Below are positions 3,715 to 19,195 of a stretch of DNA of 54,255 bases, piece after piece (position 1 is the stretch's first letter; every line of letters starts with the position of its first letter). A model generated the notes under the pieces. That model did no database searches, had not been told where the DNA came from, and saw only the letters and a list, made by a program, of their open reading frames with translations. The position numbers were made by a program, and so were the translations under genes. Source of the DNA: Deltaproteobacteria bacterium (GTDB lineage: Bacteria; Desulfobacterota; Binatia; UBA9968; JAJDTQ01); the NCBI GenBank assembly GCA_028818755.1, contig JAPPNF010000012.1:1-54255 (forward strand), read 5' to 3'.

Positions 3715-3810
3715 CCCTCACCCCAGCCCTCTCCCAGAGGGAGAGGGGGACTATGGCTGTCGACGTTGTGGCTGGCGCCCTCACCCCGACCCTCTCCCAG
3801 AGGGAGAGGG
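3715..3810. repeat. 96-bp composite direct repeat, copy A
   Basis: This 96-bp block consists of two CCCTCACCCC...CTCTCCC-agaggGAGAGGG palindromic units joined by a unique linker (gactatggctgtcgacgttg). The same block in the same orientation lies at 9888-9983 with 6 differences. The two copies flank the Yej transporter operon. Copy A overlaps the last codons of the permease-ATPase fusion gene. Confidence 0.85.
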
Positions 3811-6549
3811 CCAATCCTTCCCCTCTCCCTCTGGGAGAGGGTGGCCGAAGGCCGGGTGAGGGCCTTCGAGGGCCGCCGACACCAGTTCCCGGGTGTATTC
3901 GTGACGAGGGGTCTCGAAGATAGCCGCGGCCGGCCCCTGCTCCACCACGACCCCGCGGTGCACCACCAGGACGTGGTGGCTCATGGCGCGCACCACCTTG
4001 AGGTCGTGGCTGATGAACAGGTAGGCGCAGCCGTGCTGCTCCTGGAGCCTGCGCAGCAACGTGACGATCTGCGCCTGCACCGACACGTCGAGGGCGGAGG
4101 TGGGCTCGTCCAGCACCACGAAGCGCGGTTTCAGCACCATGGCCCGGGCGATGGCGATGCGCTGGCGCTGTCCGCCGGAGAACTCGTGGGGATAGCGGTG
4201 GCGCGCTTCGGGTTCGAGTTCCACTTCCCGCAAGGCCTCCACGATCAGCTCTTCGCGCTCCTCCGGGGTGCGGCCGAGGCCGTGGACCACCAGGCCTTCC
4301 TCGATGATCTGGGCCACGGACAGCCGCGGGTTCAGCGATCCGTAGGGATCCTGGAAGACCACCTGCATGTCCCGCCGCAGCGGCCGCAGGGTCCGGGAGC
4401 GCAGGCCCTGGATGTCGCGGCGGTCGTAACGGATCGGACCGTTGCTGCCCACCAGCCGTAGCAGCGCCAGCCCCAGCGTGGTCTTGCCCGAGCCGCTCTC
4501 GCCCACCACCCCCACCGTGCGCCCTTCCCGAAGCTCCACCGAGATACCGTCCACGGCGCGTATGTAATCCACCGTGCGCCGCAGGATGCCCGCCTTCACC
4601 GGATACCAGACCTTGAGGTCCTCGCACGCCACCAGAGGTTCGTCACCCGTGTCGCCCGGTGCGGGCCCCCCCTTGGGCGTCGCCGCCAGCAGATGCCGGG
4701 TGTACGGGTGCCGGGGCCGCTCCATCACCTCGGCGGTTTCCCCGGCCTCGACGATCTTCCCCTGTTGCATGATGCACAGCCGGTCGGCCAGCCTGCGCAC
4801 GATGCCCATGTCGTGGGTGATGAACAGGATCGCCATGCCCAGCCGTCGTTGCAGGCTCACCAGCAGCGCCAGCAGTTGCGCCTGGATGGTCACGTCCAGG
4901 GCGGTGGTGGGCTCGTCCGCGATGAGCAGGTCCGGCTCGTTGGCCAGGGCCATGGCGATCATCACCCGCTGCCGCTGTCCGCCGGACAGCTCGTGCGGGT
5001 AGGAGCCGAGCCGGCGCTCGGGATCCTCGATGCCGACCAGCCGCAGCAGTTCCACCGTGCGCGCGGCGGCCGCCGCCCCGTCAAGGCCCTTGTGCAGCTT
5101 CAGGGTCTCGCCGATCTGGCGCTCGATGGTGTGGAGCGGGTTCAGTGACGTCATCGGCTCCTGGAAGATCATGGCGATACGGTCGCCGCGGATGCCCTGG
5201 AGGGTCTGGGGGTCGGCGCCCAGCAGCTCCGTGCCCTGGAAGCGGATGCTGCCGCGCGGATGGCTGGCGGCGGGGTAGGGCAGCAACTGCAGGATCGACA
5301 ACGCGGTGGCCGATTTGCCCGAGCCGCTTTCTCCCACCAGGGCCACGGTCTCGCCCCGGCGGATGGTGAGGGAGACTCCGTCCACGGCCTCCACCGCTCC
5401 CGCCCCGGCGCCGAAGCGAACCGCCAGGTCTTCGATGGCCACCAGCGCCGTGCCGGATCCCGGTCCGGCTCCGGCGTTCCCCTCGTTGTCCGGCACGGTC
5501 GCGGCCGCCTCGTCTTCTGCGCCGGCTTCGGGCGCGAAGGTCTTGCGCGGGTCGAAGGCGTCGCGCACGGCCTCGCCGATGAACACGAGCAGGCTCAGCA
5601 TGACCGCGATGATCAGGAAGGCGGAGAAACCGAGCCAGGGCGCCTGCAGGTTGTCCTTCCCCTGCTTGAGCAACTCGCCCAGGGAGGCGGACCCCGGCGG
5701 CAGGCCGAAGCCCAGGAAGTCCAGGGCGGTAAGCGTGACCACCGCGCCGCTGGTGATGAACGGAAGGAAAGTCAGCGCCGCCACCATGGCGTTGGGCAGC
5801 ACGTGGCGGGCGATGATGCGCGGGTTGCCCACTCCCAGCGCCCGCGCCGCCCGCACGTAGTCGAGGTTGCGCGCGCGCAGGAACTCGGCCCGCACCACGC
5901 CCACCAGCGCCATCCAGCTAAACAGCAGCATGAACGCCAGCAGCCACCAGAAGCTCGGGGTCACCACGCTGGCCAGGATGATCAGCAGGTAAAGGGTCGG
6001 CAGCCCCGACCACATCTCGATGAAGCGCTGGAAGAGGAGGTCGAGCCAGCCGCCGAAGTAGCCCTGGACGGCGCCCGCGGCGACGCCGACCACCGAGCTC
6101 ACCAGGGTGAGGATCAGGCCGAACAGTACCGAGATGCGGAATCCGTAGATCAGCCGGGCGGTGACGTCGCGCGCCTGGTCGTCGGTGCCGAGCCAGTTCC
6201 GCAGGCTCGGCGGCGACGGCGCGGGCGTCGGCAGGTCGAAGGCGATGGTGTCGTAGCTGTAGCGGATGGGAGGCCACAGGATCCAGCCGCGCTCCTCGAT
6301 GAGCGCCGCGACCTCGGGGTCGCTGTAGTCGGTATCGGACTCCAGGAAGCCGCCGAACTCCGTTTCCGGATAGTCCACCAGCACCGGCACGTAGAACGCC
6401 CCGTCGTAGCGCACCAGCAGCGGTCGGTCGTTGGCGATGAACTCGGCGAACAGGCTCACGAACAGCAGCGCGCTGAAGATCACGAGCGACCAGTACCCGC
6501 GCCGGTTGGCGCGAAAGTTGTCCAGGCGTCTTCGGTTGAGCGGAGTCAT
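3781..6549 (-). CDS. YejE-YejF-type fusion: ABC importer permease plus two ATPase domains
   Basis: This 922-residue protein joins three parts normally split between two genes. Residues about 1-345 are an inner-membrane permease of the OppC/YejE type, with an N-terminal membrane helix, a periplasmic segment and the EAA-type loop [20 protein letters not shown]. Residues about 365-640 are ATPase 1 (Walker A GESGSGKS, signature LSGGQRQR, Walker B LLIADEP). Residues about 645-895 are ATPase 2 ([22 protein letters not shown]). Both ATPases keep their key residues. In E. coli YejABEF, which takes up peptides such as microcin C, the double ATPase YejF is a separate protein. The last ~25 residues ([14 protein letters not shown]...) are encoded by repeats. 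It is downstream of the binding-protein and YejB-like genes, separated from yejB by a MITE. Confidence 0.9.
3820..3862. repeat. 43-bp REP-like palindromic repeat
   Basis: The unit reads CCCCTCTCCCTCTGGGAGAG followed by GGTGGCCGAAGGCCGGGTGAGGG and contains two dyads (CTCTCCC/GGGAGAG and GGCCGAAGGCC). Near-identical copies are at 9817-9859, 43025-43067 and 47383-47425. It lies inside the 3' end of the Yej fusion gene and encodes part of its C-terminal tail. Confidence 0.85.
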
Positions 6550-6565
6550 GCGCGGATCCGGGGTC

Positions 6566-6749
6566 TAGTGTGGTGTCTGGCTAATTCGCGCAATAATATG
6601 CGGAGGATTTTTCGTCGTCGGCAAGGCGCGATGACGAGTGGGGGCGACCGTAGGTCGCCCCAGGGCGGGCACCACGCGAGGAAGAGCAACGCAGCCGACG
6701 GCGAAAAAGACCCGCAGATTATTGTGCGAATTAACCAGACACCACACTA
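6566..6749. mobile_element. MITE copy 1 (184 bp, CTAG target, long imperfect hairpin)
   Basis: The element begins TAGTGTGGTGTCTGG and ends with its inverse, CCAGACACCACACTA. Similarity between the arms continues inwards for most of its length, so it could fold into one long hairpin. Both ends lie in the tetramer CTAG (6565-6568 and 6747-6750), consistent with insertion into the TA of CTAG as known for IS630. It has no transposase gene. Copies are at 16789-16971 and 44949-45111. It sits between the yejB stop (2 bp away) and the fusion gene start (16 bp away). Confidence 0.9.
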
Positions 6750-6751
6750 GG

Positions 6752-7867
6752 TCAGGTCTCCCGGCTCTCGAAGTCGATGCGCGGGTCCACCACCACGTAG
6801 GTGAGGTCCTCCACCAGCTTCATCGCCAGGCCCAGCAGGGTGAAGAAGTACAGCGTGCCGAACATCACCGGGTAGTCGCGGTTGATGGCCGCTTCGAATC
6901 CCAGCAGGCCGACGCCGTCCAGCGAAAAGATCACCTCGGTGAGCAGCGCGCCGGTGAACAGGATGCCGACGAAGGCGCCGGGAAAGCCGGCGATGACGAT
7001 GAGCATGGCGTTCCGGAACACGTGGCGGTAGAGCACCCGGCGCTCGTTCAGCCCCTTGGCCCGCGCGGTCATGACGTACTGCTGGTTGATCTGGTCCAGG
7101 AACGAGTTCTTGGTGAGCATGGTGAGGCCGGCGAATCCGCCGATGACCATGGACAGCACCGGCAGCGTGATGTGCCAGAAGTAATCGGCGATGCGTTGCC
7201 AGAAGCCGAGATCGCTCCAGTTGTCCGATACCAGGCCGCGCAAGGGGAACCAGTCGAGATAGCGGCCGCCGGCGAACAGCACGATCAGCAGGATGGCGAA
7301 CAGGAACCCCGGCACCGCGTTGCCGACGATCACCGCCCCGGAAGACCACACGTCGAAGCGCGAGCCGTCGCGCACCGCCTTGGCGACGCCGAGGGGAATC
7401 GAGACCAGGTACACCAGCAGCGTGGTCCAGAGTCCCAGGGAGATGGACACCGGCAGCTTGTCCAGCACCAGTTGCACCACCGAGCGGTCGCGGAAGAAGC
7501 TGTCGCCGAAGTCGAAGCGCAGGAAGTTCCCCATCATGAGGAAGAAGCGCTCGTGGGCGGGCTTGTCGAAGCCGAACTGGCGCTCGATCTCCTTGATGAA
7601 CTCGGGATCGATGCCGCGGGCGCCGCGGTACGTGCCGACGGTGCCGCCGCCGGCATCCCGCGATTGCTGCTTGGAAGCCTCCACCTCCCGCTGGTCGCCG
7701 CCGCCGCTGAACCGCTCGGTGGCCGACACGTCGGTCTGCTGGAGCTTCGCCAGGAGCTGCTCCACCGGCCCGCCCGGCGCCGAGTGGATGATCACGAAGT
7801 TCAGCACCATGATGCCGAACAGCGTCGGAACGATCAGCAGCAGCCGGCGTATGATGTAGGCGAACAT
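6752..7867 (-). CDS. YejB/OppB-type ABC peptide importer permease
   Basis: A 371-residue integral membrane protein. It starts with the typical first helix of OppB/DppB/YejB permeases ([20 protein letters not shown]...), followed by a long extracytoplasmic insert (about residues 45-110), five more predicted helices and the EAA loop ([21 protein letters not shown]). The large insert and the ending [11 protein letters not shown] are typical of the YejB branch rather than DppB. It should pair with the permease part of the downstream fusion protein to form the channel. The start is 22 bp after the stop of the binding-protein gene. A MITE separates it from the fusion gene, which may disturb co-transcription. 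Confidence 0.92.
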
Positions 7868-7889
7868 GAACTACATGTGTCGCGGGACA

Positions 7890-9737
7890 CTAACCGCCCT
7901 TGCGCTTCGCCTCGAGCTCCTCCGCCTTCCTGGCGTCGACCCACCAGGCGTCGAACTGCACACCCTGCGTGGGGGTGACCTCGGGACGGCCGAAGCGGTC
8001 CCAGTGCACCAGGCGGTCGTAGGGGATGTGCCATTGGGGTATCACCCAGTGGCCCCACTGGAGCACGCGGTCCAGGGCGCGCACGTGGTTCACCAGGCTC
8101 TTGCGGTCGGGGGCGTGGACCACGCCCTCGATCAGCTTGTCCACCACCGGGTCCTTGATGCCCATGAGGTTCCGGCTTCCGCGCCTGTCGGCGAAGTCCG
8201 AACCCCAGAAGTCGCGCTGCTCGTTCCCCGGGGACAGGGATTGGCCCCAGCTCCCGATGACCACGTCGAAGTCGAAGTCGTCCAGCCGGCGGCGGTACTG
8301 CGCGGTGTCCACGGTCCGTACGGTGGCGGAGATGCCGAGCCGCGCCAGGTTCTTCTTGAAGGGCAGGACGATGCGCTCGAACAGCGGGCTCACCAGCAGG
8401 ATCTCGAACTCCATGGTCCGCCCGCTGGCCTTGTGGGTGAGCTTGCGGCTGGTCTTGTCGATGCCCCAGCCCGCCGCGCGCAAGAGATTGGACCCCTCCC
8501 GGAGGTTGGCGCGTATGCGGCCCGAGCCGTCGGTGGCAGGCGGATTGTATTCCCTGGTGAAGACCTCCTCGGGCACCCGGCCGCGATACGGCTCCAGGAT
8601 CGCTACTTCCGCGGGGCTCGGCAGCCCGGTGGCGGCCAGCTCCGAGTTGTCGAAGTAGCTGCGGTTGCGTTGGTACTGTCCGTAGAACAGCGTGCGGTTG
8701 GACCATTCGAAGTCGAACGCGTAGGCCAGCGCCTGCCGTACCTTCCGGTCCTGGAACAGCGGCCGGCGGGTGTTCAACGCGAACGCCTGCATGCCGGTGG
8801 AGCGGTCGTGGGGGATCTCCTCCTTCTTGACCAGGCCCTGCTTCAGGGCCGGGAAATCGTAGGCCGTGGCCCAGTTCTTGGAGCTGTTCTCGTACCGGAA
8901 GTCGTACTCGCCGGCCTTGAACGCTTCCACCGACACCGTGCCGTCGCGGTAGTAGTCGTAGCGCATGCGGTCGAAGTTGTCGCGGCCGACGTTCACCGGG
9001 AGATCCTTCCCCCAGTAGCCGTCCACCCGCTCGTACTCCACGAAGCGGCCGGGCTCGAAGGCGCCGATCCTGTACGCGCCGCTGCCCAGGGGCGGCTCCA
9101 GGGTCGTCTTGGAGAAGTCTCTTGTTTCCCAGTAGTGCTTCGGCAGCACCACCAGTTGCCCGAGGATCAGCGGCAGTTCGCGGTTGGTGCCGCCCCCGAA
9201 GGTAAACCGCACGGTGCGCTCGTCGAGCTTGTCCACCTTCTTCACGTCGCCGTAGTACCCGCGGTAGAAGGGGACGGCCTTGGTCAGCAGGGTTTCGAAG
9301 GTCCAGATGACGTCATCAGCGGTCACCGGCTTGCCGTCGTGCCAGCGCGCTTCGGGCCGCAGCCTGAACTGCACCCACGAGCGGTCCTCGGGCACGGTGA
9401 TGCTCTCGGCCAGCAGACCGTATTCGCTGAAGGGCTCGTCCGCGGACGCGGCCATCAGGGTCTCGTAGATGCCGCCGATGCCCGCCGCCGGGCTGCCTTT
9501 GACGATGAAGGGATTGAAGCTGTCGTAGGTGCCGATGGCCGCGAGCCGCACGGCGCCGCCCTTGGGCGCGTTCGGGTTCACGTAGTCGAAGTGCTTGAAG
9601 TCGGGCGCGTACTTGAGATCGCCGTGCATGGCGATGCCGTGGCTCGTGCGGCCCTGGTCGCTCGAAGCGGCGAAACCTGCCGTGGCGGCCAGCGCCAGCG
9701 CCGATAGCACCAACCCCCAGATCCGACTCGATCGCAT
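7890..9737 (-). CDS. YejA-like extracellular solute-binding protein (family 5) of a peptide ABC importer
   Basis: A 615-residue family 5 periplasmic binding protein. The start at 9737 is chosen because GGGAGG lies about 8 bases upstream and the product then begins with a Sec signal peptide (MRSSRIWGLVLSALALAATA, cleavage likely near GFAASS). The mature protein opens with TSHGIAMHGDLKYAPDFKHFDYVNPNAPKGG, the YejA-type beginning. Family motifs such as DDVIWTFETL and VRQALAYAFDFEW follow. It is the first gene of the three-gene Yej-type importer and would capture peptides for uptake. Its upstream region (9738-10041) holds three palindromic repeat units and no clear promoter. Confidence 0.92.
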   Translation of the reverse strand: MRSSRIWGLVLSALALAATAGFAASSDQGRTSHGIAMHGDLKYAPDFKHFDYVNPNAPKGGAVRLAAIGTYDSFNPFIVKGSPAAGIGGIYETLMAASADEPFSEYGLLAESITVPEDRSWVQFRLRPEARWHDGKPVTADDVIWTFETLLTKAVPFYRGYYGDVKKVDKLDERTVRFTFGGGTNRELPLILGQLVVLPKHYWETRDFSKTTLEPPLGSGAYRIGAFEPGRFVEYERVDGYWGKDLPVNVGRDNFDRMRYDYYRDGTVSVEAFKAGEYDFRYENSSKNWATAYDFPALKQGLVKKEEIPHDRSTGMQAFALNTRRPLFQDRKVRQALAYAFDFEWSNRTLFYGQYQRNRSYFDNSELAATGLPSPAEVAILEPYRGRVPEEVFTREYNPPATDGSGRIRANLREGSNLLRAAGWGIDKTSRKLTHKASGRTMEFEILLVSPLFERIVLPFKKNLARLGISATVRTVDTAQYRRRLDDFDFDVVIGSWGQSLSPGNEQRDFWGSDFADRRGSRNLMGIKDPVVDKLIEGVVHAPDRKSLVNHVRALDRVLQWGHWVIPQWHIPYDRLVHWDRFGRPEVTPTQGVQFDAWWVDARKAEELEAKRKGG

Positions 9738-9770
9738 GGAACCTCCCTCGGCGGCCAGTCCCAAACCCAA

Positions 9771-9859
9771 CCCCTCTCCCTCTAGGAGAGGGTGGCCTCG
9801 TTTCGTCCCAATCCAACCCCTCTCCCTTTGGGAGAGGGTGGCCGAAGGCCGGGTGAGGG
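9771..9859. repeat. Partial and full copies of the 43-bp REP-like repeat
   Basis: A partial unit (9771-9797, CCCCTCTCCCTCTAGGAGAG then GGTGGCC) is followed by a full unit at 9817-9859 that includes GGCCGAAGGCCGGGTGAGGG. They lie upstream of the YejA-like gene. With the composite repeat at 9888-9983 they fill most of the 304-bp gap between that gene and the end of the seven-gene operon. Confidence 0.8.
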
Positions 9860-9887
9860 CTGCTCGGCAATCCTGGCTTTACGAGAG

Positions 9888-9983
9888 CCCTCACCCCAGC
9901 CCTCTCCCAAAGGGAGAGGGGGACTATGGCTGTCGACGTTGTGGCCGGAGCCCTCACCCCAGCCCTCTCCCAAAGGGAGAGGG
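9888..9983. repeat. 96-bp composite direct repeat, copy B
   Basis: This is the second copy of the block at 3715-3810, in the same orientation and matching at 90 of 96 positions. It contains the same linker (gactatggctgtcgacgttg) between two palindromic units. The pair brackets the whole Yej operon. Confidence 0.85.
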
Positions 9984-10041: not shown

Positions 10042-11151
10042 TCACAGCAATTCGACGTTGGCGCGGGGGACGATGACGAGGTCGCCGTTGGCGAGCCGGG
10101 CTTCCAGGACGCGGGCGCGGGCGCCGGTGGCGATGGCCCGGGGTTCCGCGGGCAGCGCGACGACCTCGGCGGCGGCGCCGAAGTGGGGGTCCCGGATGAT
10201 GCGTACGGACGCGCCGACTCGCAGCCCGGCCGCCGGGTCCCGCTCCACGGAGCCGGCGTCCTCCCGGGCGACGATGATCTCCGGGCGCACGGCGCCCGCA
10301 CGCACCTGGGTGGCGCCGTTGATGGAGGCGGCGCGCCCTTCGAGGCTCCGGAACAGGGCGTGGGTGCGCTCGGCCAGCGGCAGCCAGCCGAAGCCCTCGG
10401 TGACGATGACGGTCATGGGGACTTCCTCGTGGCCGGTGACGGCCATGCCGAGGTCGTACCCGAGGTAGCCGGTCAGCGCGTAGTCGTCGATGGACCCCAC
10501 GATCAGGCCCGCCGCCCCGGTGTCGGCGGCCTGCAGCAGGGCTTCCAGGGTCGGCCGGGTGCCGCCCACGAGCACCTGCCCCTCGGCGTCGGAAGGGATT
10601 TTTGCCGGACCCAGAAGGGTATCGGGACCGCCCTCGACCATCCGGATGGTACCGTAGCGCTCACCGCCGACCCCGAAGATCCCCTGGATGAAGGCTCCAC
10701 GGCTCTCGACGGTCACGGACTTGCCGGGGTCTGTGTCCACCACCGTGCCCTGCACGTAGGCCCGCAGCTCGATGGCATGGGGCTCCAACCGCACTCCCAC
10801 GTGCCCGGTGCGCCGGGATACGAACTCCACGGTTCCGTCCACGGGCGCCTGGTAGCGCGACCGGAACAGCCCGAAGAGGCCCACGTGCTCGCACAACAGG
10901 TCGCCCGCGGCGACGGCGTCGCCTTCGTCCGCCTTGAGGCCCTTGACGGCCTCGAAGGGCTCGATTCCCAGAGTCTCCGGAATCCGCAGGATCTGCAGGT
11001 CGCCCGGCAGTTCGGCCCGCGCCACGACAACGTCCGGGGTCACGGCATCGCCGCGCTCGCACAGGATCCGGCCGGGCACCGGAAGCTCGCGCGTCTTGCG
11101 CACCACCGTGCCGGCCAGCACCTGAAGCGCGGGTGTCAACGCCTGGGTCAT
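10042..11151 (-). CDS. Protein of unknown function with barrel-sandwich-like and KOW-like segments, last gene of the MutL/DUF6754 operon
   Basis: A 369-residue soluble protein, with no signal or membrane segment seen. Residues about 60-130 (GDAVAAGDLLCEHVGL..., APVDGTVEFVSRRTGHVGVR) resemble a biotinyl/lipoyl-type barrel-sandwich fold, without the MKM or DKA lysine site. The C-terminal 60 residues (VGASVRIIRDPHFGAAAEVV..., LANGDLVIVPRANVELL) resemble a KOW/SH3-like barrel as in NusG-type proteins. The middle has a glycine-rich IVGSIDDYALTGYLGYDLG region. Its ATG overlaps the stop of the GlmL-like gene (ATGA at 11148-11151), implying coupled translation and a joint role. A much longer reading of this frame (to 12195) is only the shadow of the ATPase gene. 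The domain assignments are pattern-based and tentative. Confidence 0.75.
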   Translation of the reverse strand: MTQALTPALQVLAGTVVRKTRELPVPGRILCERGDAVTPDVVVARAELPGDLQILRIPETLGIEPFEAVKGLKADEGDAVAAGDLLCEHVGLFGLFRSRYQAPVDGTVEFVSRRTGHVGVRLEPHAIELRAYVQGTVVDTDPGKSVTVESRGAFIQGIFGVGGERYGTIRMVEGGPDTLLGPAKIPSDAEGQVLVGGTRPTLEALLQAADTGAAGLIVGSIDDYALTGYLGYDLGMAVTGHEEVPMTVIVTEGFGWLPLAERTHALFRSLEGRAASINGATQVRAGAVRPEIIVAREDAGSVERDPAAGLRVGASVRIIRDPHFGAAAEVVALPAEPRAIATGARARVLEARLANGDLVIVPRANVELL

Positions 11152-12986
11152 GATACCGCCAGCCCCAGTTCCGCCATCACGGCGTCGCGTTCCACGATCT
11201 GCTCCTCCGTGGAGGCCGGAGTCCGCAGCGGGCGGTTGCGGCCGTCCAGGACCACGCCGCAAAGCCCGGCGGTGAGTTCCCGTTCCAGGGTCGCGCCGGC
11301 ACCCGCGCCCACGTCGATGCTCCTGCCCGCGGGCTCGACGGTGAGGCGCACGGCGGCGCCGGGTTCCAGCTCGATGTGGCCGACCCTGCCGGCGGTAATG
11401 GTTCCCGCGGATCTGCCGTCCACGGAAACGTGCGCCAGCACCGACTCGGCCGGACGCTTGCGCGGGAATACGGGAACCACGGCATGGGCTACGCTCACGA
11501 GACAGTCGTGCAGGAAGATCTCCCGGGCGGCGTCGGGATGGACCGAGGCGAGGACTCCCAGGTGCGGCATCATGAAGATGGAGTCCACGGCGATCTGCGT
11601 GAAGCCTTGCAGCTCGAAGCCCTCCAGGATCATGAGCGCGGCGCTCATGCGGTCCGGGGCGTGGCTCAGGACGCCGCCGGAGCCGATGACCAGGTCGAGG
11701 CGCATCATGTCCACCAGGTCCGCGCGGCTCGCGGTCTGCGAAAAGATGTCGGCGATGCCGCGCTGCTGCTGCACGCCGCTGAGCCCCACCGCCAGGGAGC
11801 GGTGATGGAAGAGCGCCAGGCGCAGCGCCTCCCGGCATACCGCCTGTTCCAGCCACAAGTCCTCCAGCGTTTGCGGGATCGAGGTCGGCCGGATCATCTT
11901 GTTGCGCAACCGGTCGCGGAGCGCCGGCGGCTCTATCTCGTACGGCAGCCAACGCCGGATGGACTCCACTCCCGCCTCGATGAGGACGTTGGCCACCGAG
12001 TAGCTCATGCCCAGGTTGGCGCTCACCGTGCGGTTGAACACGGGCTCGCCCCGGCGGTTCTCGAAGACGCTGAAGACGTCGGTGGTGGCGCCGCCGATGT
12101 CGACGCACAGCACCGCCTGGCCGGCGGCCTCGGCGTAGTCGCGCACCATGTCGCCCACGGCCGCGGGCGTGGGCATCACCGGCACCGGCGTCCACCGCAG
12201 GAGCTTGTCATACCCCGGCGAGTGGCTCATGACGTGGGCGAGGAAGAACTCGTGGATGGCTTCCCGCGCGGGCGAGAGATTCTCCGCTTCCAGGGTCGGG
12301 CGGACGTTGTCCACCACCGCCACCTGCGCGGTCTTTTCGAGTATGCGCCGGACGTCTTCGGTGGCGTCGCTGTTGCCGGCGTATATCACCGGAAGGCGCA
12401 GCGAATCGCCGAACCGGGGCCGCGGCGAGGCCGCCACCAGGGTCTCGGCCATCTCCACGACGTGCTCCTGGGAGCCGCCGTCGACGCCGCCGGTCAGCAG
12501 CACGATGTCCGGTCGCAGGTGGCGCAGCCGCTGGATGCGCTCGTGGTCCTCGCGGCCGTCGTCGGCGGAGATGGCGTCCATCACGATGGCGCCGGCGCTC
12601 AGGGCCGCCCGCTCCGCGGATTCCGCGCTCATCTGCCGCACCACGCCCGCCACCGTCATCTGCAACCCGCCGCCGGCGGAGCTGGTGGAGAGATAGAGGT
12701 CGATGCCGCGCGCGGCGTCGTCGGAGGATTCGACAAACAGGGCCGCGCCGTCCCGAGCCCCATCCGGCGCCAGGATTGCATGGCCGCTCACCTCCTCGAC
12801 CTCGGCGAAGGCGTTCAGCGCTCCCGCCGTCACGTCCGCCACCGGCTGCTCCACGGTGGTGGGAGCCTCGCCCCGATACGTCTGGCGCCAGCCCTCGGCG
12901 GTCTTCTGGAACAGCAGCGCCTTGGTGGTCGTGGAGCCGCAGTCGGTGACCAGGACGGTCCGGAGCGTTGCGGGATCGGTCTTCAT
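11148..12986 (-). CDS. GlmL/MutL-like ASKHA ATPase (glutamate mutase L family), not DNA-repair MutL
   Basis: A 612-residue ASKHA-fold ATPase of the GlmL/MutL family. It has the phosphate-1 motif TDCGSTTTKALL (about residues 13-24), the phosphate-2 motif CVDIGGATTDVFSVF (about 290-305) and an adenosine-type GSGGVLSHA near 430-440. Known GlmL accompanies B12-dependent glutamate mutase, probably as a chaperone or reactivase. It is about 460 residues long, so this protein carries an extra C-terminal region of roughly 150 residues. No mutase subunits are encoded in the window. The gene overlaps both neighbours by 4 bp (ATGA at 12983-12986 and 11148-11151), and five of the seven operon products sit upstream as small or membrane proteins. 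An ATP-driven role in that membrane system is inferred. Confidence 0.85.
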   Translation of the reverse strand: MKTDPATLRTVLVTDCGSTTTKALLFQKTAEGWRQTYRGEAPTTVEQPVADVTAGALNAFAEVEEVSGHAILAPDGARDGAALFVESSDDAARGIDLYLSTSSAGGGLQMTVAGVVRQMSAESAERAALSAGAIVMDAISADDGREDHERIQRLRHLRPDIVLLTGGVDGGSQEHVVEMAETLVAASPRPRFGDSLRLPVIYAGNSDATEDVRRILEKTAQVAVVDNVRPTLEAENLSPAREAIHEFFLAHVMSHSPGYDKLLRWTPVPVMPTPAAVGDMVRDYAEAAGQAVLCVDIGGATTDVFSVFENRRGEPVFNRTVSANLGMSYSVANVLIEAGVESIRRWLPYEIEPPALRDRLRNKMIRPTSIPQTLEDLWLEQAVCREALRLALFHHRSLAVGLSGVQQQRGIADIFSQTASRADLVDMMRLDLVIGSGGVLSHAPDRMSAALMILEGFELQGFTQIAVDSIFMMPHLGVLASVHPDAAREIFLHDCLVSVAHAVVPVFPRKRPAESVLAHVSVDGRSAGTITAGRVGHIELEPGAAVRLTVEPAGRSIDVGAGAGATLERELTAGLCGVVLDGRNRPLRTPASTEEQIVERDAVMAELGLAVS

Positions 12987-13693
12987 GCAACCAGGTTGGC
13001 CACCGTGCCGTACCAGTCGATGAGCAGGAACTGGACGCGCTCCACCAGCAGCGCGGTGCGCGCCATCACCGTGGAGCCGAAGAAGGCGCCGAAGCACACC
13101 ATCAGGAGCCAGCGGCCGGAGAGGGAGAAGCCGTTGGCCGCCCGGTTCCCGTGCCGGAAAGAGAAGAAGAAGTAGTACATGACCGCCAGCAGCGTGAAGA
13201 TGAAGAACGCGTTCTCCAGGCTGGGCCCCCAAGCCAGGGCGCCGTCCGTGAACACCGCCAGGGGCCGGAAGCTGCTCGCCACCTGGGGCATGATCTGGTT
13301 GAAGAACCCCTTGAAGGCGAGTCCGCCGCTCATGCCCAGGGAGAAGCCGATCACCAGCTTGGCCAGCCACCCGTACCGTTGCGAGTAGATGAAGTAGTAG
13401 AGGAGGCCGAACAGCATGGGCAGCAGGTAGAGCAGAAGGCGCGGGTCGTACTCGTGGGAGAGGCTGCCGTCGGGATAGGTGACGATGTCCAGGCCGAGCA
13501 TGGGCACCAGCACCTTCGGCCAGAGGAAGTTCTTGATGCCCAGCACGAGGCCGAAGCCCGCGGCGATGCCGATGAAGAGGTGCTCGAACAGGCGGAAGAA
13601 CGGGTTCTCCCTGATCAGGAAGCTGAAGATCGCCAGCGTCCCGATGCCTCCCAGGAGCACGGTGGCCGCGTGCCAGGTGTCCAGGCTCGTCAT
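12983..13693 (-). CDS. Polytopic membrane protein of the MutL/DUF6754 operon
   Basis: A 236-residue membrane protein with about six to seven hydrophobic segments, for example ATVLLGGIGTLAIFSFLI, LFIGIAAGFGLVLGI, LLLYLLPMLFGLLYYFIYS, AFFIFTLLAVMYYFFF and WLLMVCFGAFFGSTVM. No known family motif was recognised. Start ATG 13693 and stop TGA each overlap a neighbour by 4 bp (ATGA), which ties it to the upstream membrane protein and the downstream GlmL-like ATPase. A longer reading to 13948 would only cover the end of the upstream gene. Confidence 0.75.
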   Translation of the reverse strand: MTSLDTWHAATVLLGGIGTLAIFSFLIRENPFFRLFEHLFIGIAAGFGLVLGIKNFLWPKVLVPMLGLDIVTYPDGSLSHEYDPRLLLYLLPMLFGLLYYFIYSQRYGWLAKLVIGFSLGMSGGLAFKGFFNQIMPQVASSFRPLAVFTDGALAWGPSLENAFFIFTLLAVMYYFFFSFRHGNRAANGFSLSGRWLLMVCFGAFFGSTVMARTALLVERVQFLLIDWYGTVANLVA

Positions 13694-14658
13694 GGCTCGA
13701 CGTCCCGTCCGTGTCCTTTCGCCTGTCTGGATTCTCCCTCTCGTCCCGACCCCTCCCCCCGTTCGTCCTGAGCGTAGCGAAGCGAAGTCGAAGGACGCGA
13801 ACCGCGAGGACGCAGCAGACCGGCCAGGTTGCCCAGCACGATGAAGGCGATGACCACGAGCTGGGCCACTCCCAGGCCGGTGTTGAGCATCAGCGATTCG
13901 TCCACCGGCCGTTCGGGGTAGCGTTGCCGCAGCATCTCGGAGTACCATGCCGCCCCCGCCAGCCCGCCCAGCAGCCCCTGGATCTGCCCCGAGTCGAGGT
14001 AGATGAACGCCTCCGGGATGGTGATGGAGGTGCAGCCGTGGCCGAACGCCGGCGTGTAGTCCTTGCTGGTGAAGTACTGGACGTAGTTGTCGAAGACCCC
14101 CACCAGCCCCGTGAACTCGGCGAGGAAGGCGATTTGCCGCAGGGTGCGCAGCCCGCTGAAGGCGGGCAGCTCGGATATGCGGTTGCCGCGGGCGTCCTTC
14201 TCGAACAGCTCGGCCAGGTTCTCGGACTTGGGGATGGCCTGGATGAGGACGCCGGCCCCCGGCCGGTAGCCGAGGTTGATCCAGTCGCGGCCGTATTCCC
14301 AGGTCTCGCCCGGGTGCTCGCGCTCGAGCTGCCGCGCGACTTCCTCGGGAACCGATTTGAGAAACGGCTCGGCCAGGTAGTAGAGCGAGAACAGGATCAC
14401 CGGGATGCGCTTGCGCATCAGATGCTCGACCACCGCGCGCGCCTGGGGCTGGTTCTCGCCCTTGGTGCTGGGGCCGAAATCCATCGCCACGAAGGCATAC
14501 CGGCCGGGGGCGGCCTCGATGCCCTCCACCACCTCGAAGAACCGTTCGGCGTCGTTCATGCGGGCGGGCTGCACCGTGTACTGGGTGAGGATGGGCACGC
14601 TCAGGGCGAGGAATACCAGCAGGTAGATCCAGCGGCGGTCCAGCCGAGCGAGGTTCAC
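13690..14658 (-). CDS. Bitopic membrane protein with large extracytoplasmic domain, MutL/DUF6754 operon
   Basis: A 322-residue protein starting at GTG 14658, 2 bp after the stop of the preceding gene. It has an N-terminal helix (WIYLLVFLALSVPIL, about residues 10-25), a domain of about 230 residues containing RYAFVAMDFGPSTKGENQPQ and YFTSKDYTPAFGHGCTSITI, then a C-terminal helix (VVIAFIVLGNLAGLL, about 267-283). No family was recognised. The ~37-residue polar tail after LLRPR partly comes from a palindromic repeat at 13764-13797 (RPSTSLRYAQDERG), so the ancestral protein probably ended earlier. The stop overlaps the next start as ATGA (13690-13693). Confidence 0.75.
   Translation of the reverse strand: MNLARLDRRWIYLLVFLALSVPILTQYTVQPARMNDAERFFEVVEGIEAAPGRYAFVAMDFGPSTKGENQPQARAVVEHLMRKRIPVILFSLYYLAEPFLKSVPEEVARQLEREHPGETWEYGRDWINLGYRPGAGVLIQAIPKSENLAELFEKDARGNRISELPAFSGLRTLRQIAFLAEFTGLVGVFDNYVQYFTSKDYTPAFGHGCTSITIPEAFIYLDSGQIQGLLGGLAGAAWYSEMLRQRYPERPVDESLMLNTGLGVAQLVVIAFIVLGNLAGLLRPRGSRPSTSLRYAQDERGEGSGREGESRQAKGHGRDVEP
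13764..13797. repeat. Dispersed CGTCCT...AGGACG palindromic repeat inside a coding tail
   Basis: The sequence CGTCCTGAGCGTAGCGAAG.. ..TCGAAGGACG is a dyad-bearing dispersed repeat of a type common in environmental genomes. It is read as the peptide RPSTSLRYAQDERG on the minus strand within the C-terminal tail of the operon's bitopic membrane protein. Confidence 0.65.
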
Positions 14659-14660
14659 GG

Positions 14661-15701
14661 CTACGACCCCTCCCCGTCGAAGGATTCCGATTCGATGGAG
14701 AACCACATGCGGAACGCCATCACCAGCCCCGCCACGCCGGCGCCGATGGTGATGGCGCGGAACGCCGCGGAGTTGGGGACCTCCAGGAGCCACAGCCTGA
14801 CGTCCGGCAGGCCCGACCAGATCCACACGCCGAAGGGAATCTGTCCGAGCATGACGAGCACGGCCGCGATCATCATCAGCGAGGACTCGGCCGAGCGCAC
14901 CCTGAAGGCGCGGTAGGCCGCGGCCGCGATGTAGAAACCGAGGAGCGAGAACATGGCCGACCCCAGCGATACGAACAAACCCTCGAAGAGCAGCCGGTAG
15001 ACATGCTTCGGCGTGGAGTATTCGTATTCGAGGTTGCGGAGGTTGCGCCAGGAGTCGGCGACGCCCCTCAGCGCCCTCGCCGCGGCGGTGTTGGGGGCCA
15101 GGTCCGCGCCCGTCGCGGTTACCGTCTCGAGGGCGGCGCGGACGGCGCCGGCGCCGGCGCCCGCCTCCGCCAGGTATCTCCGGGCCAGTCCCCGGTCGAT
15201 GCTCCCGGCGCCGAAGCGGTCGAGATCGAAACCCTGGCTCTCGCTTTCGACGCGCGCCAGCACGCGCTCCGCCGCCTCTCGCAACGCACGGTTGCGTTCC
15301 GCCACGGGCAGCACGCCTTCCACCCGCTGCTCGCGGTCCGACCGGATGCGCTCGGCGAAATCCGCCAGCCGGGTGATCTCCGCCACCTCCTCGGCCACCC
15401 GGCGGGTGCCGGACCAGTCGTTGTAGGTGACCACGATCATGATCGCCAGGCCGGTGAGGAGCGCGGCGCTGTAGACCCATTCCCTGCGCCGGAAGACGAT
15501 CCGCGAGCCGTGCTGCATCAGCAGGTTGATGAGCCCCAGCCCCGCGGCCATGGCCCCGACGGTGATGAAGCCGTTGGATATCTGGTCGTGGTAGGCGTCG
15601 ATCTTCACCCCGAACAAGGCGCCCGGGAGCACGAACTCCAGGAAGAAGTAGACCCCGCCGAGGAAGGTGACGATCTTGATGAGCCCCGTCCGGACGTTCA
15701 C
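14661..15701 (-). CDS. Six-helix membrane protein with central helical domain, MutL/DUF6754 operon
   Basis: A 346-residue protein starting at GTG 15701, which overlaps the previous stop as GTGA. Three hydrophobic segments at the N-terminus (about residues 8-35, 42-62, 76-94) are followed by a charged helical domain (about 100-230, with RVAEEVAEITRLADFAERI and LREAAERVLARVE) and three more segments (LFVSLGSAMFSLLGFYIAAA, MMIAAVLVMLGQIPFGVWIW, ITIGAGVAGLVMAFRMWF). The family is not recognised. The central domain could be a coiled-coil sensor or assembly part placed on one side of the membrane. Confidence 0.75.
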   Translation of the reverse strand: MNVRTGLIKIVTFLGGVYFFLEFVLPGALFGVKIDAYHDQISNGFITVGAMAAGLGLINLLMQHGSRIVFRRREWVYSAALLTGLAIMIVVTYNDWSGTRRVAEEVAEITRLADFAERIRSDREQRVEGVLPVAERNRALREAAERVLARVESESQGFDLDRFGAGSIDRGLARRYLAEAGAGAGAVRAALETVTATGADLAPNTAAARALRGVADSWRNLRNLEYEYSTPKHVYRLLFEGLFVSLGSAMFSLLGFYIAAAAYRAFRVRSAESSLMMIAAVLVMLGQIPFGVWIWSGLPDVRLWLLEVPNSAAFRAITIGAGVAGLVMAFRMWFSIESESFDGEGS

Positions 15702-16507
15702 GGGCCCAGACTCCAGCCGAGGTGCAGCAGCGCGTCCAGGTTGGTGAGATTGAGCTCCGGCCAGACCGAATTCGCCGTGGCGATGCCCACCCCGGCCACG
15801 ATCATGAGCAAGAGGAAGAGCTTGGCGCGGTCCTGACCGTAGAGGCTGCCGAGCTGGATAGGCTCACGGGTGAGATAGGCCGAGGCCGCGAACAGCTCCT
15901 CACCGATGAGGGTGTAGTCGCAGGAAGCGATGAAGAACGCCACCTGCTCGGGACTCACCGAGGCCCCCACCTGCATGGCCCCCGCCTGCTGGCCCGCCTC
16001 CGCCAGGATCAGCGACTCGGCGGCGAAATGGCCGAAGAGAAAGGCCCCGGCCACCCGCTCCCGCTGCACCAGGCCGATGTAGCCCGCCGCGAAGGCGAAC
16101 TGCTCCTCGGACAGGAAGCGGATGTTGCGCGGGTCGAACTGGGCCGACCGCCCCTCGGCGCGGTAGGCGTCCCGCAGCACGTCCTCGGCGATGGCCATGA
16201 CCTCGGGGTTGTTCTGCGGCAGCAGCAGGCGCGACTTGTACCGCGCCGCCTTCCGCGCCACGTAGTAGAGCACCCCGAGGCAGGCGTACAGCACCGGGCT
16301 CACGTTGGTGATGCCGGTGCAGAAGGAGAGGGGCCGCCCCAACTCCGCCGATCGGCCGGCGGCCTCGTCGACGGCGTCCACTCCGGCCAAGCGCCGCACG
16401 TACAGATCCCGCCGTCGCCGCGCCACGCGGATGTAGTAGAGCACCGGGCCGATCATCAGCGCCATGATCACCAGCACGCCGGGGGTGGCGTTCTCGAAGC
16501 CGGGCAT
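15698..16507 (-). CDS. DUF6754-type membrane protein, MutL/DUF6754 operon
   Basis: A 269-residue protein resembling the DUF6754 family. It has an N-terminal helix (VLVIMALMIGPVLYYIRVARRRRDLYVRRLAG), a conserved-looking block (GRPLSFCTGITNVSPVLYACLGVLYYVA) and a soluble middle with FLSEEQFAFAAGYIGL and FGHFAAESLILAEAGQQAGAMQVGA. A C-terminal helix (FLLLMIVAGVGIATANSVWP) follows. The function of the family is not known to me. Start and stop overlap both neighbours (ATGA at 16506-16509 and GTGA at 15698-15701), so it is the second gene of the seven-gene unit. The family name rests on recall of its pattern, not on a search. Confidence 0.75.
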   Translation of the reverse strand: MPGFENATPGVLVIMALMIGPVLYYIRVARRRRDLYVRRLAGVDAVDEAAGRSAELGRPLSFCTGITNVSPVLYACLGVLYYVARKAARYKSRLLLPQNNPEVMAIAEDVLRDAYRAEGRSAQFDPRNIRFLSEEQFAFAAGYIGLVQRERVAGAFLFGHFAAESLILAEAGQQAGAMQVGASVSPEQVAFFIASCDYTLIGEELFAASAYLTREPIQLGSLYGQDRAKLFLLLMIVAGVGIATANSVWPELNLTNLDALLHLGWSLGP

Positions 16508-16785
16508 CAGCGTTCTCCGCCTTCCGCGAGTTCCTCGATGCGCCGGATCAAGCGCTCGACGTTGTCGCGCGACTGCAGGAATGCCGGCAGCTCCCGCGCT
16601 CTTGCTCCGAACAGCGGCAGCATCATCGGCAAGCTCATCACGGCCGCCGTATGGAACAGCGAAGTCAGCGGCTTGTGGGCTTCGAGGAAAAGAATGGCCG
16701 GCACCGTCATGCGGCGGGCGTGCACGGCGGCGGCCAACTGCTCGATGAGCGCGTCCGTATTCCGGGTGTGGTCAGGCGCTTCCAT
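16507..16785 (-). CDS. Small protein opening the MutL/DUF6754 operon
   Basis: A 92-residue protein with a helical N-terminus (NTDALIEQLAAAVHARRM), a moderately hydrophobic middle (TVPAILFLEAHKPLTSLFHTAAVMSLPMMLPLFG) and a charged C-terminal helix (NVERLIRRIEELAEGGER). The middle could be a membrane helix or amphipathic hairpin; no family was recognised. It overlaps the DUF6754 gene by 4 bp. The left end of MITE copy 2 lies only 3 bp upstream of its ATG, so its leader and any ribosome binding site come from the MITE. The native promoter may have been displaced. Confidence 0.7.
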   Translation of the reverse strand: MEAPDHTRNTDALIEQLAAAVHARRMTVPAILFLEAHKPLTSLFHTAAVMSLPMMLPLFGARARELPAFLQSRDNVERLIRRIEELAEGGER

Positions 16786-16788
16786 GGC

Positions 16789-16971
16789 TAGTGTCCTGTC
16801 CGGTTAGTTCGCATAATAATCTGCGGGTCTTTTTCGCCGTCGGCTGCGTTGCTCTTCCTCGCGTGGTGCCCGCCCTGGGGCGACCTGCGGTCGCCCCCAC
16901 TCGTCATCGCGCCTTGCCGACAACGAAAATCCTCCGCATATTATCATGCGAACTAACCGGACAGGACACTA
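16789..16971. mobile_element. MITE copy 2 (183 bp, CTAG target)
   Basis: The ends are TAGTGTCCTGTCCGG and its inverse CCGGACAGGACACTA, with CTAG at both borders (16788-16791, 16969-16972). Internal sequence matches copy 1 in inverted orientation (GGCGACC..GGTCGCC core, TCTTCCTCGCGTGGTGCCCG, CCTTGCCGAC). It lies between the divergent seven-gene operon and the DppD/DppF pair, 3 bp from the first start of the operon. Small open frames inside it are not genes. Confidence 0.9.
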
Positions 16972-17088
16972 GCGGGAGCGTGAGGCCCTGGCATCCATTC
17001 GTGAGACGGGACACCAGGGTTCGCGTCTAACAGGATTCATCCGGCCTATCAAGGAAGTCGCGGCCGGTCTGGCCGACTCCGATTTCGT

Positions 17089-17116
17089 TTGCACCCCTGC
17101 CGTTTTTTGGTACATT
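17089..17116 (+). promoter_or_regulatory. Candidate sigma-70 promoter for the DppD/DppF pair
   Basis: TTGCAC (17089-17094) and TACATT (17111-17116) are separated by 16 bases and lie 51 bp upstream of the DppD start. The match is plausible but unproven. Confidence 0.45.
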
Positions 17117-17166
17117 GCGCGCGTGCGGGTCCGATAGGCGTGTTAGGCAGGGAGCGGCCGCGGGGC

Positions 17167-18129
17167 ATGGCGACACTGCTCGAAATCAAGAATCTCCACA
17201 CCTCGTTCGTGACCTCCGACGGCGAGTTTCCGGCCGTGGACGGACTGAACCTCACCATCGAGGCGGGCAAGACCTTGGGGCTCGTGGGCGAGTCGGGCTG
17301 CGGCAAGAGCGTGACGGCCCTTTCCGTCATGCGGCTGATCCCCAACCCGCCCGGACGGGTGGCGGAAGGCGAGGTCCTCTATCGCGGGCAGGACCTCCTG
17401 AAGCTGCCGGACGAGGAGATGCGGCAGATCCGCGGCAACGAGATCTCCATGGTGTTCCAGGAGCCCATGACCTCGTTGAACCCGGTGTTCACCGTCGGCG
17501 ACCAGATCATGGAGGCCATCCGCCTCCACCAGAAGGTCACGCGCCGGGAGGCCAAGGAGAAAGCCGTCGAGATGCTTCGGCTGGTGAAGATCGCCGATCC
17601 GGAGATCCGGGTCAACGACTACCCGCACCAGATGAGCGGCGGCATGCGTCAGCGCGTGATGATCGCCATGGCGCTGTCGTGCAACCCGAGCCTTCTCATC
17701 GCCGACGAGCCGACGACCGCCCTCGACGTGACCATCCAGGCCCAGATCCTGGAGCTGATGGGCGAGCTCCAGGACCAGCTCGGCATGGCCTTGCTGCTCA
17801 TCACCCACGACCTCGGGGTGGTGGCGGAGCAGGCGGACGAGGTGGCCATCATGTACGCCGGCCGGATGGTCGAGCGCGCCAAGCCCGAGGTGATCTTCAG
17901 CAAGCCCCTGCACCCGTACACCATCGGCCTGCTGAACTCGCTGCCCAGCGGCACCAGCAAGCGGCGTCTCGACGCCATCCCGGGCGTCGTGCCGAGTCCG
18001 CTGGACCTGCCCAGCGGGTGCCGCTTCCGGGACCGCTGCTTCAAGGCGACGGGAATCTGCGAGGGCCATGAGCCCACTCTGGAGGAAAAGGGCCGCAACC
18101 AGTGGGTGGCGTGCTACCGGACCAATTAG
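17167..18129 (+). CDS. DppD/OppD-type peptide ABC transporter ATP-binding protein
   Basis: A 320-residue ATPase of the oligopeptide/dipeptide group, with Walker A GESGCGKS (about residues 41-48), signature MSGGMRQR, Walker B LLIADEP and the oligopeptide-transporter C-terminal extension. That extension has four cysteines ([14 protein letters not shown], then CYRTN at the end), the spacing that in some DppD proteins holds an Fe-S cluster. The ATG at 17167 is used because the product then starts with the normal [14 protein letters not shown]. It forms a pair with the DppF-like gene 64 bp downstream. No binding protein or permease is next to it, so its partners must lie elsewhere. Confidence 0.9.
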
Positions 18130-18193
18130 CGTAGGGTCTTCGAAGCGTAAGGGATCTTCGAAGCGCAGCGTCGTCGACAGGACCATCGATCTC

Positions 18194-19195
18194 ATGAGCT
18201 TGCTCGAAATCAAAAACCTGAAGAAGTACTTCCCGGTGGAGGAAGGACTGCTCGCCCGGCGCAGGGGTGACGTCAAGGCCGTGGACGGCGTCAGCCTGAC
18301 GGTGGAGGATGGGGAGACCCTCGGCGTGGTGGGCGAGTCCGGCTGCGGCAAGTCGACGCTGGGCCGCACGATCCTCCGGCTCATCGAGCCCACCGACGGC
18401 GAGATCCTGTTCGAGGACAAGGACATCATGAGGATCTCCAGCGCCGAGATGCGCGACCTGCGCAGGCGCATGCAGATCATCTTCCAGGACCCCTACGCCT
18501 CGCTGAATCCCCGCATGAGGGTCGGCGAGATCATCGGCGAGGGCCTCAAGATCCATCGCATGGCGTCCGGCGGCGACCGCAAGGAGCAGGTCATGGCGCT
18601 GCTCGACAAGGTCGGCCTGCGCGACGACCACTACGACCGCTACCCGCACGAGTTCAGCGGCGGCCAACGCCAGCGCATCGGCATCGCCCGAGCCTTGGCC
18701 GTGTCGCCCAAGTTCATCGTCGCGGACGAGCCGGTGTCGTCGCTGGACGTGTCGATCCAGGCCCAGATCATCAATCTCCTGCAGGAGCTGCAGGAGAGCA
18801 TGAGCCTCACGTTCTTCTTCATCTCCCACGATCTCCGGGTGGTCGAACACGTGAGCCACCGGGTGGCCATCATGTACCTCGGCAAGATCGTCGAGATCGC
18901 CCCCAGCGCGGCCATCTACACCGACGCCCGCCACCCCTACACCCGCGCCCTGCTGTCCGCCGTCCCCATGCCCGACCCCAACCCCAAGAAGGATCGCATG
19001 GTGCTGGAAGGCGACGTCCCCAGCCCCGTCAACCCCCCGACCGGGTGCAACTTCCACCCCCGCTGCCCGTTCCGCGAGCAGGTCTGCACCGAGGTGGAAC
19101 CCGAGCTCGACTTCTCCCTCGGCGGCCACGGCACCGCCTGCCACGTCTTCGGCCCCGGCAAACGCTCCTGGCCCAACCCCCCGCGCGACACCTGA
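18194..19195 (+). CDS. DppF/OppF-type peptide ABC transporter ATP-binding protein
   Basis: A 333-residue ATPase beginning MSLLEIKNLKKYFPVEEGLL, the usual DppF/OppF opening. It has Walker [10 protein letters not shown], signature [15 protein letters not shown], Walker B IVADEPVSSLD and the C-terminal oligopeptide domain (GCNFHPRCPF..., four cysteines). The ATG at 18194 fits the family. It would work as a heterodimer with the DppD-like protein on a permease pair encoded elsewhere. The downstream 386 bp carry a strong inverted repeat and the greA promoter. Confidence 0.9.
   Translation: MSLLEIKNLKKYFPVEEGLLARRRGDVKAVDGVSLTVEDGETLGVVGESGCGKSTLGRTILRLIEPTDGEILFEDKDIMRISSAEMRDLRRRMQIIFQDPYASLNPRMRVGEIIGEGLKIHRMASGGDRKEQVMALLDKVGLRDDHYDRYPHEFSGGQRQRIGIARALAVSPKFIVADEPVSSLDVSIQAQIINLLQELQESMSLTFFFISHDLRVVEHVSHRVAIMYLGKIVEIAPSAAIYTDARHPYTRALLSAVPMPDPNPKKDRMVLEGDVPSPVNPPTGCNFHPRCPFREQVCTEVEPELDFSLGGHGTACHVFGPGKRSWPNPPRDT

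Follow-up and report, generated by a model that had tools for sequence, protein, structure and literature searches.

A recurring seven-gene set around a GlmL-type ATPase as a candidate envelope machine in Binatia and other bacteria

The operon and its predicted products

The gene set described here lies on a 54,255-nt stretch of DNA from a Deltaproteobacteria bacterium (class Binatia; positions 1-54,255 of contig JAPPNF010000012.1, GenBank assembly GCA_028818755.1), referred to hereafter as the window. Seven open reading frames run head to tail on the minus strand from position 16785 to 10042, all of them present where a preliminary description of this DNA had placed them. Their products, designated P1 to P7 from the 5'-most gene onwards, include four predicted membrane proteins and a putative ASKHA ATPase, and may form a single system of the cell envelope. 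The genes, and a miniature inverted-repeat transposable element (MITE)-like repeat ahead of them, are as follows.

P1, 16507..16785, minus strand: small protein of 92 amino acids (aa), first gene; no Pfam match
P2, 15698..16507, minus strand: 269 aa, DUF6754 domain (PF20539) between two transmembrane (TM) segments
P3, 14661..15701, minus strand: 346 aa, six predicted TM segments
P4, 13690..14658, minus strand: 322 aa, a predicted extracytoplasmic alpha/beta domain between two TM segments; GTG start
P5, 12983..13693, minus strand: 236 aa, five predicted TM segments
P6, 11148..12986, minus strand: 612 aa, putative ASKHA ATPase of the MutL/GlmL type (PF13941)
P7, 10042..11151, minus strand: 369 aa, soluble protein of beta domains (AlphaFold/Foldseek)
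MITE-like element, 16787..16973, no strand: 187 bp with 58-nt inverted arms

The genes are tightly packed, with a GTGA overlap between P2 and P3 (15698-15701), ATGA overlaps between P4 and P5 (13690-13693), P5 and P6 (12983-12986) and P6 and P7 (11148-11151), and a gap of 2 nt between P3, whose stop codon ends at 14661, and P4, whose GTG lies at 14658. These four overlaps and the gap were as previously described; a fifth four-base overlap, an ATGA reported between P1 and P2, was not found, as this junction (CGCTGATGCC) reads TGATG with an overlap of 1 nt at 16507 and bases 16506-16509 are TGAT. Hydropathy analysis predicted TM segments in P2 (two), P3 (six), P4 (two) and P5 (five), and none in P1 or P7, in agreement with the earlier count of four membrane proteins, one of them DUF6754-like. 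P1, P3, P4, P5 and P7 had no Pfam family above cut-off; a motif P-A-I-x-F-L-E-x-x-K-P-L is conserved in P1.

P2 is a member of PF20539 (E 1.1e-82, 277 bits, cut-off 27). Lysine and arginine (K/R) counts around TM segments were used to place the domains of P2 and P4. Across 89 members, 112 K/R residues precede the first TM segment of P2 and 391 follow it, whereas in 80 members of P4 the outer ends of the TM pair carry 182 and 277 and the domain side 99 and 134. The DUF6754 domain was therefore placed inside, as a predicted cytosolic domain, and the P4 domain outside. Of 94 P2 frames, 68 begin with an N-terminal extension of 77-769 aa (these are longest frames, and some may be over-long), so that many P2 relatives are predicted to carry an extracytoplasmic extension ahead of the DUF6754 part; on our reading of the printed sequences, the extensions of three loci (L030, L047 and L072) appear to contain a signal-peptide-like stretch. 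P3 has a coil-like stretch inserted between its third and fourth TM segments. The AlphaFold model of P4 (pLDDT 86.8, pTM 0.82) showed a Rossmann-like alpha/beta domain between two TM helices, with no structural match in the PDB at E <=1e-3. A large insertion of HEAT repeats was seen within the predicted outer domain of one P4 relative (L085:4075-6009). The cytosolic domain of P2 and the outer domain of P4 were rejected as homologues, and so were P3 and P5 (hhalign probabilities of 1.5% and 1.6%, respectively).

Residues 11-494 of P6 align to positions 1-449 of the 450 in PF13941 (414 bits, cut-off 27) and are followed by a C-terminal extension of about 120 aa. Among 17 aligned sequences the motif DIGGATTD is invariant, and DCGSTTTK and GSGG are kept at 90% or more; in ASKHA proteins such motifs belong to the nucleotide site. 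By its motifs P6 is a putative ASKHA ATPase, as had been proposed, and may hydrolyse ATP.

The AlphaFold model of P7 (mean pLDDT 88.3, pTM 0.68) is a chain of beta domains consisting of a barrel-sandwich part, an RraA/PA-like swivelling part and a C-terminal KOW/SH3-like barrel. The sole Foldseek match below E 1e-3 was NusG of T. maritima (1.3e-5); with a TM-score of 0.13, this likeness is taken as one of domains. Weaker matches included RraA (9.6e-3), PA-type domains and the KOW domains of Spt5, and Pfam gave a KOW match below threshold and nothing else. The model and the NusG and Spt5 matches agree with the earlier suggestion of a KOW/barrel-sandwich-like protein. Sequence searches against solved structures at E 1 returned no relatives of P2, P3, P5 and P6, one chance match for P4, and 22 weak matches for P7 (lipoyl-type domains, NusG, RNA polymerase, dehydrogenases and others).

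Recurrence of the gene set and its partners

DUF6754 was found throughout the window's genus (nine genomes) and in one other of 39 near relatives. All seven genes were present in each of seven stretches, six from the genus and one (L012, genome G037) from another family of the class, in which the order is P1-P6-P7-P2-P3-P4-P5 and identities are 31-54%. In the wider phylum only two of 297 genomes had DUF6754, the window's own included. A scan of named genomes for relatives identified at least 551 stretches encoding P2 relatives, of which the 80 most similar were examined; with L012 and L019 these make up 82 loci, many of them on truncated contigs. P3 was present in 79 of the 82, P4 in 76 and P5 in 72, and P1 (34 loci), P6 (25) and P7 (28) were found at either end of the P2-P5 module or divergent from it. 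The set is thus not a single occurrence, the case in which the preliminary description would have been mistaken.

Seventy loci held 79 complete P2-P5 modules, always in the order P2-P3-P4-P5, with 66, 70 and 73 of the 79 copies of the three successive junctions at 20 nt or less (gaps are approximate, being based on longest-frame starts). Because it recurs across 79 modules, the tight packing of P2-P5 is more than chance. P6-P7 may lie upstream or downstream of the module or be divergent from it, and P1-P6-P7 can lead. Exceptions were an extra P4 or P2 in L057, L072 and L084, a P2 without P3-P5 behind it in L076 and L027, and L019 (G273), where P2-P3-P4 are present in a genome without a P7 match; the contig of L019 may be contamination and was kept in the alignments. 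By record name the carriers, nearly all metagenome-assembled genomes (MAGs), include Binatia, Dadabacteria, Deltaproteobacteria, Bdellovibrionales, Fermentibacteria, Armatimonadetes, Poribacteria, Latescibacterota, Zixibacteria, Cloacimonadota, WOR-3/Stahlbacteria, Eisenbacteria, Phycisphaerae, Terriglobia, Fermentithermobacillaceae and others. MAGs labelled Chthonomonas calidirosea in their records are also among them.

Co-occurrence was assessed in whole genomes for 48 of the 80 loci, hand-picked for spread; the counts exclude the other 32 loci. As L083 and L051 share one genome, the sample comprised 47 genomes, or 48 with the window's own. P2 is present in all 48 by selection; P5 was found in 48/48, P7 in 47/48, P1 in 46/48 and P6 in 46/47. 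Among the 297 phylum genomes P7 was limited to the window's own and one match of 22.6 bits, a less sensitive figure than the others since at most six candidates were scored per genome. By these counts, the co-occurrence of P1, P5, P6 and P7 with DUF6754 is near-strict, which upholds the view of the seven genes as one recurring set.

The glutamate mutase subunit GlmE (PF06368) exceeded its cut-off in none of the 48 genomes, with one match of 17.6 bits in G364; the search did not extend by name to other B12 mutases or to KamDE/OraSE. To this extent the earlier view that the GlmL-like protein has no glutamate mutase partner here was borne out, and the other case in which the preliminary description would have failed, GlmL homologues of the clade always lying beside mutase genes, was not seen. 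B12-binding domains (PF02310) were above cut-off in 51 of 54 genomes; G337, which has P1, P2, P5, P6 and P7, gave no such match, although this genome may be incomplete. P6 scored below the cut-offs of GlmL (NF040745, 222.1 bits against 475), the GlmL-related ornithine degradation protein Or-4 (NF040744, 216.9 against 600) and glmL_fam (TIGR01319, 183.6 against 204), and with NF040745 a P6 from WOR-3 and a Cloacimonadota fusion protein reached 239.3 and 206 bits. On these scores P6 is in the MutL superfamily, yet is the equivalog of neither GlmL nor Or-4.

P6 and P7 matches were found within one open frame in 11 cases from seven genomes (G339, G345, G355, G357, G366, G371 and G376). These frames encode 910-993 aa, and domain positions were read out for L095 and L080, the latter cut by a contig end. 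As six of the seven genomes also have separate P6 and P7, the fusion is taken to be a paralogue. It is the strongest single indication, as judged from gene structure, of a direct partnership between P6 and P7.

Two to six P2 matches occurred in 28 of the 48 genomes, 15 of which had exactly one P6 match, giving P2:P6 ratios as high as 5:1 (G350 and G373) and 4:1 (G359 and G372). The system is unusually expanded in the 1.7-Mb genome G358 (L063, Fermentithermobacillaceae), where six matches to P2, seven to P5, five to P6 and seven to P7 were counted, some representing fragments of a single gene. In five loci two or three complete P2-P5 modules stand in tandem. All four subunits of modules 2 and 3 of L098 had their best matches in modules 2 and 3 of L091, respectively, and module 1 of L065 matched module 1 of L091; by these matches, some P2-P5 modules are inherited as units. 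In the 13 module pairs from the same locus, identity was highest for P2 in 12 pairs (with a tie in one) and lowest for P4 in 12, with identities within L098, L091 and L065 of 0.50-0.68 for P2 and 0.32-0.38 for P4. This contrast fits a predicted cytosolic side constrained by a partner common to the modules, with an outer side that becomes specialised. Pairwise identities of P2-P5 over the 79 modules correlated at 0.87-0.91, as shared ancestry alone would also give.

Neighbouring genes and elements

In the window, genes for an oligopeptide-type ABC (ATP-binding cassette) transporter flank the operon (3781-9770 and 17089-19195). A family-5 solute-binding gene lies downstream of it, with relatives in L020, L021 and L023 of the same genus, and four loci from Armatimonadota (L053, L069, L086 and L093, the last confirmed by Pfam) likewise have such a gene behind the module; as these genes are common, chance may account for their position.

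The arms of the MITE-like element are 86% complementary and 71 nt apart, and the element ends 1 nt before the start codon of P1; it may carry or have replaced the operon leader. An exact 20-mer of one arm also occurs upstream of P1 in L010 (G006) and, among the fetched loci, otherwise only in the window's own (L009). A palindrome, CCCTCTCCC-NNNN-GGAGAGGG, occurs at nine sites in the window (18 strand matches against 0.08 expected), located at 3727-3841, 9772-9983, 43026 and 47384; the gap that follows P7 contains four of these sites.

Other genes adjoin the set in particular groups. A small membrane protein, weakly YcxB-like, is encoded upstream of P1 in 18 loci of several phyla (L040:9158-9640 and 17 others) and is a possible eighth part of the system; it was not seen beside the set in the window's genus. 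Two coiled-coil genes with predicted extracytoplasmic products precede P1 in loci from Dadabacteria, Deltaproteobacteria and Bdellovibrionales (L022, L024, L025 and L026). The long outer extension of P2 is lacking in these four loci, where the coiled-coil genes possibly replace it. They were rejected as further parts of the system, as the second gene, the sole one searched, was found in 5 of 22 genomes and in none of nine from the window's genus. In Fermentibacteria (L030-L033, L042 and L044), genes read by eye as ExbB-like lie behind the cluster, mostly with ExbD/TonB-like ones.

A proposed envelope machine, its alternatives and known systems

We propose, with a probability of roughly 0.45, that P1-P7 are one envelope system in which a cytosolic ATPase, P6-P7, acts on one or several four-subunit modules, P2-P5. 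Genome comparison supplies the grounds: co-occurrence, modular inheritance, the covalent P6-P7 fusion and the absence of GlmE. P2, P3, P4 and P5 would form an inner-membrane module in which P2 presents its DUF6754 domain to the cytosol as a docking face, P4 exposes its alpha/beta domain beyond the inner membrane, and the membrane core or path is made up of P3 and P5. P6 would be a GlmL-type ASKHA ATPase that has changed its partner and is now paired with P7, a beta-rich adaptor whose swivelling domain could pass on movement. We infer that P6 docks with P7 on the cytosolic face of P2, and that ATP-driven opening and closing of P6 is transmitted through P7 to P2 and across P3/P5 to the outer domains; hydrolysis, the direction of coupling, the sharing of the ATPase and the existence of a ligand belong to the same conjecture. 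P4 and the outer P2 domains would then be the working head, whose task would most likely be to move, load or release a ligand or to assemble a surface structure. Since one P6-P7 pair could serve several P2-P5 modules, the modules would be the specific parts and the ATPase the shared one. The earlier idea of an ATP-driven membrane machine thus gains from the recurring set without a GlmE partner and from the conserved nucleotide motifs, its ATP-driven action being the part that is deduced. Less probable, and put forward tentatively, is the further proposal that this is a new class of ATP-driven envelope machine, in which a GlmL-derived ATPase with P7 powers several exchangeable four-subunit modules, each with an outer head of its own.

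Several observations weigh against the proposal. Co-occurrence has gaps in G360 (P6 and P1), G356 (P7) and G371 (P1), although MAGs may be incomplete, and it includes weak cases, namely a P6 piece at a contig edge in G364, a P6 in fused form only in G371 and a divergent P7 of 97 bits in G363. A single shared ATPase is not a rule, because P6 matches number two or more in 12 of the 28 genomes that have several P2 matches (in five of these, G339, G345, G357, G366 and G376, the extra match is the fused form), one has none, and G358 has five P6 to six P2; G364 and G371, with their partial and fused P6, are moreover among the 15 counted as having one. Module inheritance is mixed in module 1 of L098 and in L050 and L052, and the P2 of L027 stands without its module. 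P4 was also the least alike subunit between the module-2 orthologues of L098 and L091 (0.70, against 0.79-0.81 for the others), so that its divergence between modules may reflect a faster rate. The folds of P4 and P7 have no functional relative. Finally, P6 lies apart from the module in several Armatimonadota loci, and the glycine cleavage genes discussed below would suit a metabolic role better.

The main rival, which we consider unlikely, is that P6-P7 are a chaperone or reactivase that spends ATP on assembling, repairing or unlocking the P2-P5 module, which would itself act without ATP. ASKHA reactivases of B12 enzymes are ATP-using maintenance factors of this kind, and the swivelling domain of the RraA/PA-like type also occurs in dehydratase reactivases. 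The membership of P6 in the MutL family, in which its nearest NCBIfam model is a mutase accessory protein, and the swivelling fold of P7 are consistent with this role; a single P6-P7 pair for several modules would be as natural for a maintenance factor as for a motor, and the unlinked P6 of Armatimonadota also speaks for it. The near-strict co-occurrence and the operon packing in the window, on the other hand, suggest a stoichiometric part.

A second alternative is a membrane metabolic or transport unit tied to glycine cleavage, in which P6 and P1 would aid glycine breakdown or synthesis and P2-P5 would handle a substrate or product. The genes gcvT-gcvH-gcvPA-gcvPB are found ahead of P1-P6, in the same orientation, in eight Fermentibacteria loci (L030-L034, L042, L044 and L153), in WOR-3 (L136) and in Latescibacterota (L138), and in Stahlbacteria (L137) gcvPB alone precedes P1-P6. 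Eight of the gcv frames (in L136, L137, L138 and L153) passed NCBIfam cut-offs, and the remainder were named by BLAST similarity to L136. A small gene stands between the gcv genes and P1-P6 in the Fermentibacteria loci that were read, and gcvPB overlaps with the longest frame for P1 in both L136 and L137. Of 102 loci examined (45 with P6), 11 showed the link, which covers four phylum-level groups; it may be an old gene order or a real metabolic tie. As these groups may be related, the order could have come by descent, and the remaining 91 loci gave no gcv match; among these are three loci from the genus of the window (L020, L021 and L023) and others from Armatimonadota, Cloacimonadota, Phycisphaerae and Acidobacteria. 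We regard a role in glycine metabolism as improbable.

Slightly less probable again is that P6 serves as an actin-like scaffold of the FtsA, PilM or ParM kind, which positions an envelope module and whose ATP binding controls assembly and not transport. P6 carries ASKHA/actin-type motifs and weakly matches MreB-like_C (E 0.0017, below cut-off) and a phage partition protein family (E 4.4e-4), but these matches span only some 40-55 residues at the phosphate-2 loop, which is common to the superfamily, and P6 matches the whole MutL model. That P6 is an ordinary GlmL whose B12 mutase lies elsewhere in the genome, and that it sits in this operon by accident, was already disfavoured and is very improbable: most genomes do have B12-binding domains and the search did not cover the OraSE/KamDE aminomutases, but GlmE was above cut-off in none of the 48 genomes, P6 fell short of all three GlmL-type models, G337 had no B12-binding match even if it may be incomplete, and P6 is fused to P7 in seven genomes.

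Two further candidates were rejected. A viral or mobile origin found no support, as no P2 relative occurred in viral contigs (a search for close relatives only), P1-P5 and P7 had no PHROG match at E 0.01 and P6 had one weak match. For anti-phage defence, PADLOC models gave only a partial 14-bit match of P6 to E1-E2.

The set is of interest because, despite at least 551 stretches encoding P2 relatives, Pfam places five of the seven proteins in no family above cut-off and gives DUF6754 no function; it also groups the ATPase with a helper of glutamate mutase, an enzyme whose GlmE subunit was above cut-off in 0 of 48 carriers. It travels across many little-studied bacterial groups and points to an envelope machine of which we found no description in the literature covered, in which no paper named DUF6754, nothing on GlmL-type proteins bore on this set and few subscription journals were represented. 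If the seven products do form a machine, then Fermentibacteria, WOR-3, Cloacimonadota, Zixibacteria, Armatimonadota and other groups would have a major envelope component that is still unstudied, and a B12-enzyme helper family would have been recruited to membrane work. Should cultured Chthonomonas calidirosea also carry the set, the system could be tested there.

By the models scanned, the set is not an ABC or energy-coupling factor (ECF) transporter, a pilus or secretion platform or a known defence system. P6 resembles the GlmL/MutL proteins of glutamate mutase and Or-4 in its PF13941 alignment and nucleotide-site motifs, but differs in its scores below cut-off, its additional C-terminal part, its association with P7 and membrane partners and the lack of GlmE in the 48 genomes. 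P2 is a full member of DUF6754, for which Pfam gives no function, and is placed here within a seven-part system with recurring neighbours. Platforms of the PilM/PilNOP and GspL type likewise link an actin-fold cytosolic protein to inner-membrane proteins with periplasmic domains, but P1-P7 had no Pfam or NCBIfam match of the PilM, PilN, PilO or PilB type. The diol/glycerol dehydratase reactivase, which combines an ASKHA ATPase with a swivelling beta/beta/alpha domain, is alike in fold type only. ECF-type vitamin transporters are alike in logic only, as one ATPase unit serves several membrane modules with different outer parts. The ATPase here is of the ASKHA type and not an ABC ATPase, no ABC_tran match being found by Pfam in P1-P7 although ABC genes adjoin the set in the window, and the modules have four subunits with large predicted extracytoplasmic domains. 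If the proposal holds, no earlier ASKHA-powered equivalent of transporters or export machines with a shared motor is known to us, and this one would be present in many uncultured phyla.

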